The translations under genes were made by a program, and so were the position numbers. DNA of 21,254 nucleotides from IMG/VR virus record IMGVR_UViG_3300046005_000856, positions 1-21,254 of that record; one strand, 5' to 3'. The stretch's first letter is position 1. The number at the start of each line of letters is the position of its first letter. The notes beneath the pieces were generated by a model. It was not told the DNA's origin, did not search any database, and saw only the letters and a list, made by a program, of their open reading frames with translations. Origin of the DNA: a virus. This document shows, piece by piece, positions 9,486 to 19,799 of the stretch.

Positions 9486-9513
9486 GGAGCTGTTTTACCA
9501 GCTCCATTTTTTT
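9486..9513 (+). terminator. intrinsic terminator of the late operon
   Basis: Seven-base-pair stem GGAGCTG / CAGCTCC with a six-base loop, followed by A and seven T residues. It sits 17 bases after the last structural gene and one base before the end of the converging minus-strand gene. On the minus strand the hairpin is not directly followed by a T-run, so it is a clear terminator for rightward transcripts only. Confidence 0.85.
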
Positions 9514-12562: not shown

Positions 12563-12588
12563 AAAAAAATGCCCTACCGAAATAGGGC
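12563..12588 (-). terminator. intrinsic terminator inside the leftward operon
   Basis: On the minus strand GCCCTA, loop TTTCGG, TAGGGC, then A and seven T residues. It lies between the genes ending at 12605 and starting at 12552, ending ten bases before the latter's ATG. A strong candidate for partial termination, or for an antitermination or attenuation point between middle and distal genes. Confidence 0.8.
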
Positions 12589-12604: not shown

Positions 12605-12853
12605 TCAGGAATTGCAAATTAAATTGTTAGCTTTCCAGTCCATTGCCTTTTGAACTAAAAGATTAATGCTGGTGTACTTTGGTGATAATGTTGCGTTCTC
12701 TAACAATCCAAATAGCTCAGAACCGTCTGTTTCTGCGATTTGAGCGTTGATTAGTGCTTGGCAATAGTCTACAAAGGCTTGTGCTATTAAAATGCCACCA
12801 AGCGACTGATCTATACGCATATCAGTTATTATTTTATCAAATTGATCTTCCAT
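12605..12853 (-). CDS. hypothetical protein (82 aa)
   Basis: Starts MEDQFDKIITDMRIDQSLGG, acidic and helical, no cysteine motif, no membrane segment. No family recognised. Its ATG overlaps the stop of the upstream membrane protein by one base (TAATG), suggesting coupled translation; GGTGA lies just upstream. Last gene before the internal terminator. Confidence 0.6.
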   Translation of the reverse strand: MEDQFDKIITDMRIDQSLGGILIAQAFVDYCQALINAQIAETDGSELFGLLENATLSPKYTSINLLVQKAMDWKANNLICNS

Positions 12854-13077
12854 TAGAAATCACCTTTGTTTGGTGCTACAAATGAAGGAACATTACTTGG
12901 AAGCTCAAGAACTTGATAAATCTGTTCCTCTCCCTTCAGATTCTTTTGGATAATAAATGCACCTGATCTGGTTTTGTGGATTACACTTGATTTATCGTTA
13001 TTGGTGTATGTTGCGCCAATAATAAATCCACATGTAAGAGCTGCTAATATTATTACTGCTATTTGTTTGTTGTTCAT
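12853..13077 (-). CDS. membrane-anchored small protein behind a hairpin leader
   Basis: 74 residues. Short Lys-containing head (MNNKQ), one hydrophobic helix (IAVIILAALTCGFIIGATY, residues 6-24), then a hydrophilic domain (IHKTRSGAFIIQKNLKGEEQ) that would face the periplasm. Uncleaved signal anchor likely. Preceded by a 27-base leader carrying AAAGAG as a weak ribosome-binding site and, upstream of it, the ACAAGGATGT hairpin. No family recognised. Confidence 0.65.
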   Translation of the reverse strand: MNNKQIAVIILAALTCGFIIGATYTNNDKSSVIHKTRSGAFIIQKNLKGEEQIYQVLELPSNVPSFVAPNKGDF

Positions 13078-13104
13078 GTTGTTCTCTTTATAGTTGTAGT
13101 TAAT

Positions 13105-13120
13105 GCCACATCCTTGTGGC
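13105..13120 (-). promoter_or_regulatory. CsrA/RsmA-type RNA hairpin, copy 1
   Basis: Minus-strand RNA GCCACA-AGGA-TGTGGC: six-base-pair stem, tetraloop AGGA. The ten bases ACAAGGATGT equal the core of the CsrA SELEX consensus (ACARGGAUGU with GGA in a hairpin loop). It ends 27 bases before the ATG of the gene at 13077. Downstream TTAACTACAACTATAAAGAG is nearly shared with copy 2. The consensus match is seen; binding is inferred. Confidence 0.55.
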
Positions 13121-13128
13121 GGTGGTTG

Positions 13129-13374
13129 TTATTGTGCAATGATTGGATAAAAACCTTGATTTGGATAGTTAAGAAAGCCATTAATGCGTATTGCTTCTTT
13201 TAACTTAGATGCTGATAATGTGTATGCTGGTTGGTTATCCCATCTTTTAGAAATTATTTCTCCGTTTCTAATATACCATCCAGCACAATCCATATTGTGC
13301 TTTCCTTGAATTTCTAAAGTAATCAATGTTGTTGTTTTAGAAATGTTTTCTATTCTATAAGTTTTAGTAGCCAT
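13129..13374 (-). CDS. hypothetical protein (81 aa)
   Basis: Start at ATG 13374 chosen for the strong AGGGGAA ribosome-binding site six bases upstream; an in-frame ATG at 13410 would add 12 basic residues. Product MATKTYRIENISKTTTLITL... is beta-rich, with AGWYIRNGEI and GFLNYPNQGFYPI. No family recognised. A 47-base gap separates it from the nuclease gene upstream. After its stop comes the copy-1 hairpin. Confidence 0.6.
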   Translation of the reverse strand: MATKTYRIENISKTTTLITLEIQGKHNMDCAGWYIRNGEIISKRWDNQPAYTLSASKLKEAIRINGFLNYPNQGFYPIIAQ

Positions 13375-13421
13375 CTTATTCCCCTTTCTTTTTCTTGTTA
13401 AGTTGGGCATAGATTAAATAA

Positions 13422-16702: not shown

Positions 16703-17075
16703 ATGAATTATCCTTGTTGTGGACTTCTAGTCCTGTTAATGGTGGATTAAATACGCATAGCAGCTCTACTGTAGAAAAAGCTATAAATGAATGCGGATCA
16801 TTTTTGTCAAGAACGTACATCGTGCCAGGCAATATTCTATGTTTTTCTCCTGTATTTTTATTTGTAATACATCCATGCCCTTTTATACAATAACAAGCTT
16901 CAAGATGATTTTTATAATGCCAATGTTGTTCTCCATTTGGTGGTATTATTGTGTTTGTCACAGAAAAACCCATATTGTCTTTTTCAAGCAAAAACCTTCT
17001 GCTTAAAAAACCTCCTTTTGGGCATTTAACTTCTTTTTCTGTTCCTTTTAATTCATGCAATTTAATTATTTTCAT
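16692..17075 (-). CDS. ectC: ectoine-synthase-like cupin (EctC family)
   Basis: 127 residues, the usual EctC length. EctC (EC 4.2.1.108) closes N-gamma-acetyl-diaminobutyrate to ectoine. Conserved blocks: DNMGFSVTNTII (33-44), HYKNHLEACYCIKGHG (53-68), PGTMYVLDKNDPH (83-95) and LLCVFNPPLTGLEVH (105-119). With a +2 offset to well-studied EctC, the iron ligands Glu57/Tyr85/His93 correspond to Glu59, Tyr87 and His95, and Tyr54, His57 and Cys107 are also kept; a substrate-site Trp appears as Phe23. It has no ectA, ectB or ectD neighbour: it lies between a PAPS-reductase-like gene (ATGA overlap) and a ParB-like gene, so it may use a different substrate. No good ribosome-binding site, so probably translated by coupling. 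Confidence 0.88.
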   Translation of the reverse strand: MKIIKLHELKGTEKEVKCPKGGFLSRRFLLEKDNMGFSVTNTIIPPNGEQHWHYKNHLEACYCIKGHGCITNKNTGEKHRILPGTMYVLDKNDPHSFIAFSTVELLCVFNPPLTGLEVHNKDNSYDI

Positions 17076-18373
17076 AATTTTTTATATTTTTCCATAATTT
17101 CACGTTGTCGTAATGCTTGCTCTTTTGTTGGAGCAAATCCCATGTATTTGCAAGTATGGTCATTTTTTAAAATAGTAATTGCAAATCTTTTCCACGATGC
17201 AACTTCACTATTATTATTTTTTATATCATCAGTATGATCTGGATATTTTTTAATTATTACTCTAATTTTATCTTTTCTTCCATGAGGTGTTAATCCATTT
17301 TCTTTTATCTTTATTCTGTTGCTTGTCCTTAATTGCTCTAATGTACTATCTGATACGGTTTGCCCAACTCTTCCCCAATATTTAATTGATTGAACAAACC
17401 GCATCTTAAAATTTATAGAAACTTCCTCCGGTAAAGTAGCCAACAAAAATTTAACAAACGATTTCCATGTGTGTCCTTTAGGTAATTTAAAAGTATTGTA
17501 ATTAAGTTGTTTTCCATACGTTGCTATAAAATTAGCTCCTTGAACACGAGCACATAATTTAGCCCATGTATGAGGATCAATAACTCTATATAAACCTAAA
17601 CTAGATTTAGATTCAGACATAAATGGAGATGCAACTCTCATTCTATGAACAGGAACTCCTGCTTTATAAAAAATATCGTAAAGTTTGTTGTAATCCCAAT
17701 CGTATATGCAATTAGCAGTCCAAATATCTTCTGTTCTCCAATCATAAATAGGGTAACAATTATAAGAATGCTCTGTATTTTTTTTTGTCCACATTTGACC
17801 GCCTAAAGTTTCTTTTTGTTGATTCATAATTGCTCTGAATCTGTTTAAACTTTCAACGGTTCTAATTCCAATTAAATTTGCACATGTTTTTCCTTGAGAA
17901 TACCATTCTGAAAATCCATCCCAAAATTTATCATATGGCATATCTTCTTCAAAAAATGGAAAATTATGATTATCAAAATTAACAATATAATCTTGTTTTG
18001 GCATAGGTCTTATCCATCTTTCTTTATCTCTATTTCCCCAGCATTGCCATTCAACTGCATATGAACTTATTGTGCAAGGAAGTGTTATAGGCAAACAGCA
18101 CCAATAAATTTCAAGCAAATCTCTATTTGAATCAAGTATTCTGTGCATGAACTCTACAGACAATTCATAATTTGCTTCATTGTCTAAAATTTGAATACCT
18201 ATTTTTTTTGTTATTCCTTTTTCCCTCATATATTTCAAAACAAAATTAAGCATTACGCCAGAATCTTTACCTCCTGAAAATGAAAGATATATTCTTTCAA
18301 AATTATTAAATATAAAATCCAATCTTTCTACGCCTGCATCCCAAACATTTTTATCTCTGTTATAAGTTCTCAC
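17072..18373 (-). CDS. PAPS-reductase-like / DUF3440 protein, IbrA-like
   Basis: 433 residues from GTG 18373 (GTGA overlap with the YqaJ stop; GGAGG five bases upstream). N-terminal PP-loop LSFSGGKDSG (30-39) of the adenine-nucleotide alpha-hydrolase / PAPS reductase superfamily, then a Cys/Trp-rich segment (EIYWCCLPITLPC, EWQCWGNRDKERW) and a DUF3440-type C-terminus (ASWKRFAITILKND). Such proteins activate a substrate by adenylation or reduce sulfate esters, and include IbrA and DndC-like sulfur enzymes. Paired with the ParB-like protein as in ibrAB. A role in nucleic-acid or small-molecule sulfur chemistry is inferred only. Confidence 0.88.
   Translation of the reverse strand: MRTYNRDKNVWDAGVERLDFIFNNFERIYLSFSGGKDSGVMLNFVLKYMREKGITKKIGIQILDNEANYELSVEFMHRILDSNRDLLEIYWCCLPITLPCTISSYAVEWQCWGNRDKERWIRPMPKQDYIVNFDNHNFPFFEEDMPYDKFWDGFSEWYSQGKTCANLIGIRTVESLNRFRAIMNQQKETLGGQMWTKKNTEHSYNCYPIYDWRTEDIWTANCIYDWDYNKLYDIFYKAGVPVHRMRVASPFMSESKSSLGLYRVIDPHTWAKLCARVQGANFIATYGKQLNYNTFKLPKGHTWKSFVKFLLATLPEEVSINFKMRFVQSIKYWGRVGQTVSDSTLEQLRTSNRIKIKENGLTPHGRKDKIRVIIKKYPDHTDDIKNNNSEVASWKRFAITILKNDHTCKYMGFAPTKEQALRQREIMEKYKKL
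17157..17182. repeat. dispersed direct repeat, copy 2 (copy 1 at 15691-15716)
   Basis: tggtcattttttaaaatagt + aattgc, 23 of 26 identical to copy 1 and in the same frame, within the C-terminal module of the DUF3440 gene. Confidence 0.75.
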
Positions 18374-19233
18374 GACAACCTCCAATAACTAACAGGATCA
18401 CCGGTATATTCAGTAAGATCAACATCAGGTAGAAGTTCTTTAACTACTTTAGCGTAGGATATAGAACCAGCTTTGGTAACTTTAGTTAGCTTATGACCAT
18501 TGATCTCACTATCCTTGCCATCAGCAAGTTTAACTATTTCATCTAGCAATCGTTTTTTTTCTGCTTCAAGTTCTTTTATCTGCTCTGCTATCATTAAATA
18601 GCGATCAACTTGTCCTTCACACCTTACTTGTTGGCGTTTATCATCAAGATACTTTTGTGCTTGTGGTAGTTCACGCTCTACAAGAAATTCATTGTAGAAG
18701 TCTTTTAACTTTGGTAAATATTCTTCAATAGCTAATTGATTAAATTGTACTGTTTCAAGCATGTAGCCGTGTGCCGACCATTGATAAAAATGACACCATT
18801 GGCACCCAGTAACAAGCAGTTGAATCTGTATCTGCATCCAGTAATGCGTTTGGTAATCTATAGACTTAAACTCTGGTGGATTTTTATCACGCAAACCATA
18901 CGGACATTTAATCTCTATCAATCCATCATTACCGATCAATCCATCTGGTGATGCTCCAAGCCAATCTTCATAAGTATGAAAACCAGTAAGCTCTACTTTT
19001 TTATCAAACTTTAATTCATAATCAGCTAAAGCATTTGGTTCGTTATACGTTCCATAATTTGTTGCTGGATTACCTGTAAATTCACTTGGGTAGCCATGAT
19101 ATTGACGCACCATGTTACGCATGACATCTTCACGTTTCATGAATGGCGATAATCCTAAGATTGCACCAACATTACTACCAGTTACACGACCAGCTCTTTT
19201 TTTAAACCATTCTTCTGTTCTTTGTTGTTCCAT
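18370..19233 (-). CDS. YqaJ-like viral exonuclease (lambda-exo superfamily)
   Basis: 287 residues. N-terminal EEWFKKRAGRVTGSNVGAIL (7-26) with the R...S motif of YqaJ nucleases; G61-x3-E65 in YGTYNEPNALADYE; catalytic Asp97 (GASPDGLI) and Glu107-x-Lys109 (LIEIKCP); then HYWMQIQIQ (130-138). The C-terminal third is a coiled coil (IAEQIKELEAEKKRLLDEI). Such enzymes resect double-stranded ends 5'-3' to feed a phage annealing or RecA-like protein; a Sak4-type ATPase and SSB are upstream in the same operon. Preceded by a leader with the copy-2 hairpin and TAAGAG as a weak ribosome-binding site. Confidence 0.9.
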   Translation of the reverse strand: MEQQRTEEWFKKRAGRVTGSNVGAILGLSPFMKREDVMRNMVRQYHGYPSEFTGNPATNYGTYNEPNALADYELKFDKKVELTGFHTYEDWLGASPDGLIGNDGLIEIKCPYGLRDKNPPEFKSIDYQTHYWMQIQIQLLVTGCQWCHFYQWSAHGYMLETVQFNQLAIEEYLPKLKDFYNEFLVERELPQAQKYLDDKRQQVRCEGQVDRYLMIAEQIKELEAEKKRLLDEIVKLADGKDSEINGHKLTKVTKAGSISYAKVVKELLPDVDLTEYTGDPVSYWRLS

Positions 19234-19265
19234 TGTTATTTACTCTTATAGTTATAGTTAAAAAT

Positions 19266-19279
19266 GCACATCCTTGTGC
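19266..19279 (-). promoter_or_regulatory. CsrA/RsmA-type RNA hairpin, copy 2
   Basis: Minus-strand RNA GCACA-AGGA-TGTGC: five-base-pair stem and AGGA loop, again containing ACAAGGATGT. The pair just outside the shared CACA/TGTG stem is G-C here and C-G in copy 1, a compensatory change that supports a real RNA stem. It ends 32 bases before the YqaJ-like ATG. It is followed by ATTTTT, so a weak terminator is an alternative reading. Confidence 0.55.
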
Positions 19280-19289
19280 GTTTGTTTAT

Positions 19290-19799
19290 TTACCAGGGGA
19301 TTGAATCAATATCAACTACACTTGGTTCTGCTGACTTTTCTTCTTTAACTGGTGTAGCACCTTTGCGTGGAGCTACAGAAGCAACCCAATTACCAGTTCT
19401 ACCTTCTAAATCCCATACCATTACTTTTATTAACATTGGTTTATTTAATAATGCTTTTGCCATTGCAGTATCATTTGGTGCTTCATCAGACTGTGCTAAT
19501 TTTCCACCACAGTTTGCATCAATAGCAGCAAGCATCTTTTTAGCTTTATCGGCTTTCTTGCTATCCACATCAAAAACTCTAACCTTTTGAAATATTTTAC
19601 GTCCTTTGTATATTGCAGGTTCTGCTATTACCCATCGTAAACTTATGTATTCATCACCTTGATACTCAGCCAATCCTGCTTCGTCAATCATTGCAAGGCA
19701 AGTTGTATTGTCAGGTATGTTTTCAATCATGCCACCAGAAGTGAATTCACCAGTTGTTGTAATTTCTTTGTTATCGCTTGTTGTCCAAAAGTTTGCCAT
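19290..19799 (-). CDS. phage single-stranded DNA-binding protein (DUF669-like)
   Basis: 169 residues: an OB-fold-like beta-rich body (YISLRWVIAEPAIYKGRKIF, MLIKVMVWDLEGRTGNWVA) followed by a charged linker and the acidic tip VVDIDSIPW. An acidic tail ending in an aromatic residue after Pro is the protein-interaction tail of bacterial and phage SSBs. GGAG within the last codons of the Sak4-like gene serves as its ribosome-binding site. Position between Sak4-type ATPase and YqaJ exonuclease is the usual order of phage recombination modules. SSB role likely. Confidence 0.8.
   Translation of the reverse strand: MANFWTTSDNKEITTTGEFTSGGMIENIPDNTTCLAMIDEAGLAEYQGDEYISLRWVIAEPAIYKGRKIFQKVRVFDVDSKKADKAKKMLAAIDANCGGKLAQSDEAPNDTAMAKALLNKPMLIKVMVWDLEGRTGNWVASVAPRKGATPVKEEKSAEPSVVDIDSIPW

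Follow-up and report, generated by a model that had tools for sequence, protein, structure and literature searches.

Organisation of the locus

The window, that is, the whole 21,254-nucleotide stretch that was analysed (virus record G000), comes from a tailed phage; in this 21.3-kb fragment structural-type genes run rightward and replication and recombination genes run leftward. The leftward set encodes a Sak4-like annealing protein, a single-strand DNA-binding protein (SSB), a YqaJ exonuclease, and PAPS-reductase-like, ParB-like and RadD-like helicase proteins. Near-DNA comparison of the window with the phage records gave no match, an Rfam search of the window matched no family, and family searches with the 74-aa, 82-aa and 80-aa neighbour proteins gave none.

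A short hairpin lies in the leaders of two leftward genes (Table 1). On the minus strand the order at copy 1 is ...CAATAA, CAACCACC, GCCACAAGGATGTGGC, ATTAACTACAACTATAAAGAGAACAAC, ATG. The position proposed in an earlier reading of the DNA, made from its letters alone (the sequence-only reading), is borne out: the hairpin sits between a stop codon (TAA, 13131-13129) 8 nt upstream and an ATG (13077-13075) 27 nt downstream. Both copies start 8-10 nt past a stop codon and end 27 or 32 nt short of an ATG, and they have in common the hairpin core and an A/U-rich stretch, TTAACTAYAACTATAA, 3' of each. The SELEX consensus for the regulator CsrA is RUACARGGAUGU (PMC7652899); its ten-base core, ACAAGGAUGU, is exact in both copies, as the same reading had claimed, and the 5' RU is unmatched (CC in copy 1, GC in copy 2).

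Table 1 Features of the two hairpin-bearing leaders in the window
Feature	Position	Strand	Description
Downstream gene of copy 1	12853..13077	-	74-aa protein with a hydrophobic segment at the N-terminus; no family above chance
A/U-rich leader of copy 1, ATTAACTACAACTATAAAGAGAACAAC	13078..13104	-	Weak Shine-Dalgarno sequence AAGAGA, without a second GGA
Copy 1 hairpin, GCCACAAGGATGTGGC	13105..13120	-	Predicted CsrA/RsmA operator; arms GCCAC and GTGGC, loop AAGGAT; from fold, conservation and covariation
Upstream gene of copy 1	13129..13410	-	80-93 aa by choice of start; 8 nt separate its stop codon from the hairpin
Downstream gene of copy 2	18370..19233	-	YqaJ/RecE-like recombination exonuclease, 287 aa; Pfam PF09588, phrog_434
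Copy 2 hairpin, GCACAAGGATGTGC	19266..19279	-	Arms GCAC and GTGC, loop AAGGAT; CANGGANG conserved at the homologous position
Upstream gene of copy 2	19290..19799	-	Single-strand DNA-binding protein (ssb), phrog_9002; stop codon 10 nt before the hairpin

The 16-nt hairpin of copy 1 alone folds at -9.3 kcal/mol (z -2.85; 3 of 200 shuffles equally good). Two matches to the core ACANGGANGT, one in each leader, are present in the window against an expected 0.45, and 8 of 100 shuffles reach two; in the window by itself this enrichment is weakly significant. The window alone being modest evidence, the significance of the hairpin comes from conservation, both in the likeness of copy 2 and in related loci. 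A Rho-independent terminator, with a GC stem and a T-run, was rejected for copy 1, which is followed on the transcript by ATTAACTA; copy 2, with a 5-bp stem followed by ATTTTTAA, is a marginal match that also falls short of this pattern.

Conservation and covariation of the hairpin

A total of 78 related loci were gathered through the exonuclease, and most keep the hairpin. Leaders were then selected through homologues of the preceding ssb gene, with no motif demanded; of the 44 distinct sequences that follow ssb, 42 have CANGGANG on a stem (68 of 71 loci), at SSB identities down to 55%. Leaders of homologues of the 74-aa gene carry the hairpin in 15 of 22 distinct sequences; among the seven that lack it, L067 has the near-form CAAGGATT at that place. 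The conservation in related phages that the sequence-only reading had proposed as a check is thus seen at both positions. The element is absent from the nearest isolates, H103, CASP1, pYD21-A and VaS_L1. The A/U-rich leader of copy 1 stays in the hairpin-less relatives L048, L057, L066 and L071, so that the hairpin is a module open to gain and loss. In five loci (L063, L068, L069, L070 and L077) an additional gene separates ssb from the exonuclease gene, and the hairpin remains by the ssb stop codon, now before the insert.

Only five loops were found in the homology-chosen leaders: AAGGAU, AUGGAU, AUGGAC, AAGGAC and ACGGAC. The GGA, the A two bases 5' of it and the closing C-G pair are constant, and variation is confined to the two loop positions that CsrA ignores. 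This specificity agrees with the SELEX consensus (PMC7652899) and with the high-affinity ANGGAX hexaloop on a stem described by NMR (PMC4005645).

For covariation an alignment was made of 30 different hairpins, drawn both from the window family and from tail assembly chaperone leaders, which are described below. Two-sided changes occur in four of the five stem pairs, with 24 two-sided cells where shuffles give 9.2; the covariation score is 0.417 against 0.086 for shuffled alignments (reached in 0 of 500), and it collapses in slid controls. Since the alignment was built from motif-bearing sequences, its pairing percentages are biased upward and the invariance of C, A, G, G and A among the 30 hairpins is partly by construction; the real evidence is the two-sided changes together with the homology-chosen leader set. 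The inner closing A-U pair is absent in 12 of the 30 sequences, so that the conserved object is the hexaloop C-ANGGAN-G, directly on a C-G-closed stem; the sequence-only reading was right that GGA is displayed in the loop, and its tetraloop gives way to this hexaloop. With compensatory change in the stem and a constant GGA, the comparative evidence indicates that selection acts on it as an RNA hairpin.

Occurrence in other phages

The exact 16-mer was found in at least 45 IMG/VR stretches, mostly just 5' of an ATG. The hairpin recurs at comparable positions in phages that are not related to the window lineage: IMG/VR contigs, Vequintavirinae infecting Klebsiella, Salmonella, Erwinia, Cronobacter and E. 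coli, a Rheinheimera Barbavirus and a Vibrio phage. Counts of variants in the collection are lower bounds, so that reliance is placed on fractions. Among the IMG/VR matches listed, GCCACAAGGATGTGGC lay in leaders in 22 of 33 contexts, before about 11 groups of downstream proteins, and its antisense reading did so in 0 of 32; the hairpin always has the orientation of the downstream gene, on the sense strand of the leader. Among the matches listed for the loop variants, most single-base changes occurred in 0 or 1 leaders, and replacement of the 5' A of ANGGA, pairing-preserving replacements included, left 3 of 62 in leaders. The stem-variant scan, GCCNCAAGGATGNGGC, was uninformative, as other exact stems with the AAGGAT loop lay mostly inside genes among the matches listed. 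Some contigs (L495, at 2550 and 2832; L258; L282) have two or three such leader hairpins, with some stems differing within a contig.

Tail assembly chaperone leaders

Among isolates with known hosts, the hairpin was found before the tail assembly chaperone gene of Klebsiella phage BIS47, Salmonella phages PVPSE1 and GEC_vB_MG, Erwinia phage SNUABM_01, Cronobacter phage CR3, E. coli phages TH18 and A73, Rheinheimera phage Barba5S (Barbavirus) and Vibrio phage 249E41-1. It was not found before that gene in V5, phi92, phiWec188 or the Aeromonas Plateaulakevirus phages. At this one gene position one loop is carried by three stems: GCCAC/GTGGC in the Vequintavirinae, GCCTC/GAGGC in A73 and GACTAAC/GTTGGTC in Barba5S. 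The gammaproteobacteria Klebsiella, Salmonella, E. coli, Cronobacter, Erwinia and Rheinheimera carry csrA, and csrA was detected in E. coli as the positive control of our CsrA search.

Twelve Vequintavirinae-type and Vibrio leaders (L332, L333, L334, L336, L337, L342, L317, L319, L321, L326, L340 and L480) share a set of GGA motifs: counted from the first at 0, a second recurs at +23-26 nt and a third at +44-50 nt. This third motif sits at the Shine-Dalgarno sequence; in A73 the third is at +47 and a Shine-Dalgarno GGA follows at +54. In most of the leaders the last GGA lies within a small covarying hairpin at the Shine-Dalgarno sequence (ACGC-AGGA-GCGT or ACAC-AGGA-GTGT). CsrA dimers bridge sites 10-63 nt apart (PMC7652899), and the spacing in the Vequintavirinae-type leaders falls within this range. 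As judged from these motifs, such leaders have the multi-site architecture of CsrA-repressed mRNAs and are a stronger candidate for CsrA control than the window; they are also found in isolates from enteric hosts. The window leaders have no second GGA near the Shine-Dalgarno sequence at 10-63 nt, so that dual-site bridging does not apply there.

A contig with many hairpins

Contig G024 (IMGVR_UViG_3300027632_000001; L510-L511) is 37.4 kb long, and its open reading frames for RNA and DNA polymerase mark it as T7-like. One strand has 13 CANGGANG hairpins with a stem of at least four pairs and the opposite strand has 3, whereas permuted loops give 0-2. About ten hairpins are outside genes, most of them before an ATG, and their stems differ. 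About six overlap sigma70-like promoters (TTGACA-N17-TANNNT) with the arms still pairing; transcripts begun there would exclude those hairpins. LUZ100, a distant isolate relative of G024 whose promoters and terminators have been mapped, is without such a hairpin.

Alternative explanations

A phage-encoded RNA-binding protein could autoregulate early genes through the hairpin, with the likeness to CsrA sites being convergent. Such phage proteins are known (T4 RegA, phage coat proteins), and the element is kept within a lineage and located at phage leaders. The same hexaloop is present, however, in siphovirus-like phages, Vequintavirinae, a Barbavirus, a Vibrio phage and a T7-like contig, which have no recognisable regulator in common, so that a shared host factor is the simpler explanation and an autoregulator is unlikely.

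Equally improbable, in our estimate, is a generic intercistronic hairpin that protects an mRNA 3' end, serves in processing or is a weak terminator, and in which GGA stands in the loop by coincidence. Phages often have GNRA- or UUCG-loop hairpins at intergenic positions of this kind, which counts against the CsrA reading. GNRA-loop hairpins occupy homologous places in Pseudoalteromonas phage H103 (after ssb), L120, phi92 and phiWec188, and in L063, L069 and L070 the hairpin stays beside the ssb stop codon despite the gene inserted before the exonuclease. These intercistronic places thus seem to favour a hairpin irrespective of its loop, and the CsrA-type loop may have been gained by, or lost from, an older hairpin. 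An incidental loop does not account for the constancy of GGA and of the A two bases earlier while the other loop positions and the stem change, nor for the control scan, in which the GAAA tetraloop lay in leaders in 7 of 24 contexts, several with terminator-typical T-runs, against the 22 of 33 for GGA (among the matches listed in each case). As an observation on these loci, ANGGAN is replaced by a GAAA or AGAAAU loop at L344:35439 (H103), L338 (phi92), L341 (phiWec188), L120 and L339 (phiA019).

The loop might instead be a ribosome standby site or an extra Shine-Dalgarno sequence on a hairpin, as AAGGA is complementary to UCCUU at the 16S 3' end and the hairpin lies 24-52 nt upstream of the ATG; this is very unlikely given a whole clade with AUGGAC or ACGGAC, in which A(N)GGA and the closing C-G persist but most of the complementarity is gone. 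We give as little weight to a DNA element (an operator, part of a promoter or a single-strand DNA hairpin promoter), to which the promoter overlaps in G024 would point, since the arms vary with compensation that a reader of duplex DNA would not need, the orientation always follows the downstream gene, and the roughly 20 nt from hairpin to ATG in clade 2 of the window family is too little for a promoter plus leader. For the window copies a promoter was in any case rejected, with no listed -35/-10 pair beside the hairpins and no such room in clade 2.

A candidate operator for host CsrA

The hairpin is probably an operator through which CsrA/RsmA, a global regulator of the host, gates translation of the downstream gene. 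Its identity as a CsrA/RsmA-type site is strongly supported by the sequence evidence, and from this we infer that CsrA is the protein that binds it. A CsrA gene was found in 0 of 27 phage records, so that the host protein would be needed. Among cellular contigs, a moderately close relative (54% identity, the best of five distant relatives in a genome scan) was found in just one, from a Ferrovum metagenome-assembled genome (MAG). This MAG gave no csrA hit and its phage contig is without such a leader, though the assembly may have gaps and the contig may be wrongly binned.

In the proposed mechanism, the leftward mRNA would fold, past the end of one gene and ahead of the ribosome-binding site of the following one, into a short stem that displays C-ANGGAN-G. 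A host CsrA dimer would dock on the displayed hairpin and crowd the 30S landing site just 3' of it, giving less or later translation of the 74-aa protein or the YqaJ exonuclease. In the other phage lineages CsrA would bridge to further GGA motifs as far as the Shine-Dalgarno sequence. Expression of the downstream gene would then track free CsrA, as set by the Csr sRNAs and nutrient state of the host. For the multi-site leaders, repression by ribosome blocking is the most likely outcome on the arrangement of their motifs. Because the window family has a single GGA and a weak Shine-Dalgarno sequence, the effect there may be partial repression, delay or mRNA stabilisation; repression is favoured, less firmly.

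The sequence-only reading had also suggested that the phage RNA could be a sponge that removes CsrA from host mRNAs, a suggestion that finds little support here. A sponge role for the window phage is unlikely, since its 21 kb contain two sites and each relative has one or two conserved ones in leaders; relatives G001, G003 and G006 have few leader hairpins, not the many GGA hairpins in one abundant RNA that a sponge would have. A broader proposal, which we regard as evenly balanced, is that several unrelated tailed-phage lineages independently placed high-affinity CsrA operators in chosen leaders, where a regulator of host carbon metabolism times expression, and that some, such as G024, may also titrate CsrA from host mRNAs.

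Comparison with known systems

The E. coli mRNA glgC is repressed through an upstream hairpin and a Shine-Dalgarno site (PMC7652899). The phage leaders resemble such mRNAs in having a high-affinity GGA in a hairpin loop 5' of the start, and the Vequintavirinae-type leaders also have a lower-affinity Shine-Dalgarno GGA within bridging distance (PMC7652899). They differ in being phage mRNAs and, in the window family, in having one GGA site and none at the Shine-Dalgarno sequence. The ANGGAN hexaloop on a stem is also the highest-affinity CsrA/RsmE site of CsrB and RsmZ (PMC4005645); those are non-coding sponges with many sites, whereas the phages have one or two per genome (about ten in G024) in coding transcripts.

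A mobile-element mRNA under host CsrA is known from plasmid pColE2, in which CsrA binds the leader of the colicin E2 lysis gene (cel) and delays lysis, and in which the plasmid mRNA and single-strand DNA also titrate CsrA (PMC5916893). The phage counterpart is predicted; pColE2 is a plasmid rather than a phage, and the cel site is at the Shine-Dalgarno sequence. Phages are connected with the Csr system in a further way, through the 30 that carry csrA (PMC7366521), and knock-down of one phage csrA lowers plaquing (PMC11879866). Those phages bring the protein, whereas the phages described here carry RNA sites. A preprint of 2026 takes a modelling approach to the CsrA targets of host genomes and mentions phage integrases among them (PMC12889724); its subject is genes that lie in bacterial genomes. 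No published description of a phage leader with CsrA sites was found in the open-access papers searched, in agreement with the sequence-only reading, which knew of none in such phages.

If the operator reading is true, CsrA control of phage mRNAs would tie lytic development to the carbon state of the host post-transcriptionally, with a putative benefit to the phage. As the element is also present in A73, for which E. coli K-12 MG1655 is the recorded host, and in well-known phages of Salmonella and Klebsiella, the idea is testable with existing laboratory tools.

Other features of the window

An A/U-rich stretch, TTAACTAYAACTATAAR, lies 3' of the hairpin in both leaders (13081-13104 and 19241-19265, minus strand); it is retained even where relatives have lost the hairpin and is a possible translation enhancer. 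The phosphoadenosine phosphosulfate reductase-like gene (17072-18385, minus strand), with a DUF3440 domain, adjoins the gene for the ParB-like protein and is a possible auxiliary gene. Strong terminator-like hairpins with T-runs lie at 9486-9505 (plus strand) and 12571-12588 (minus strand), the former near the point where the rightward and leftward genes converge.
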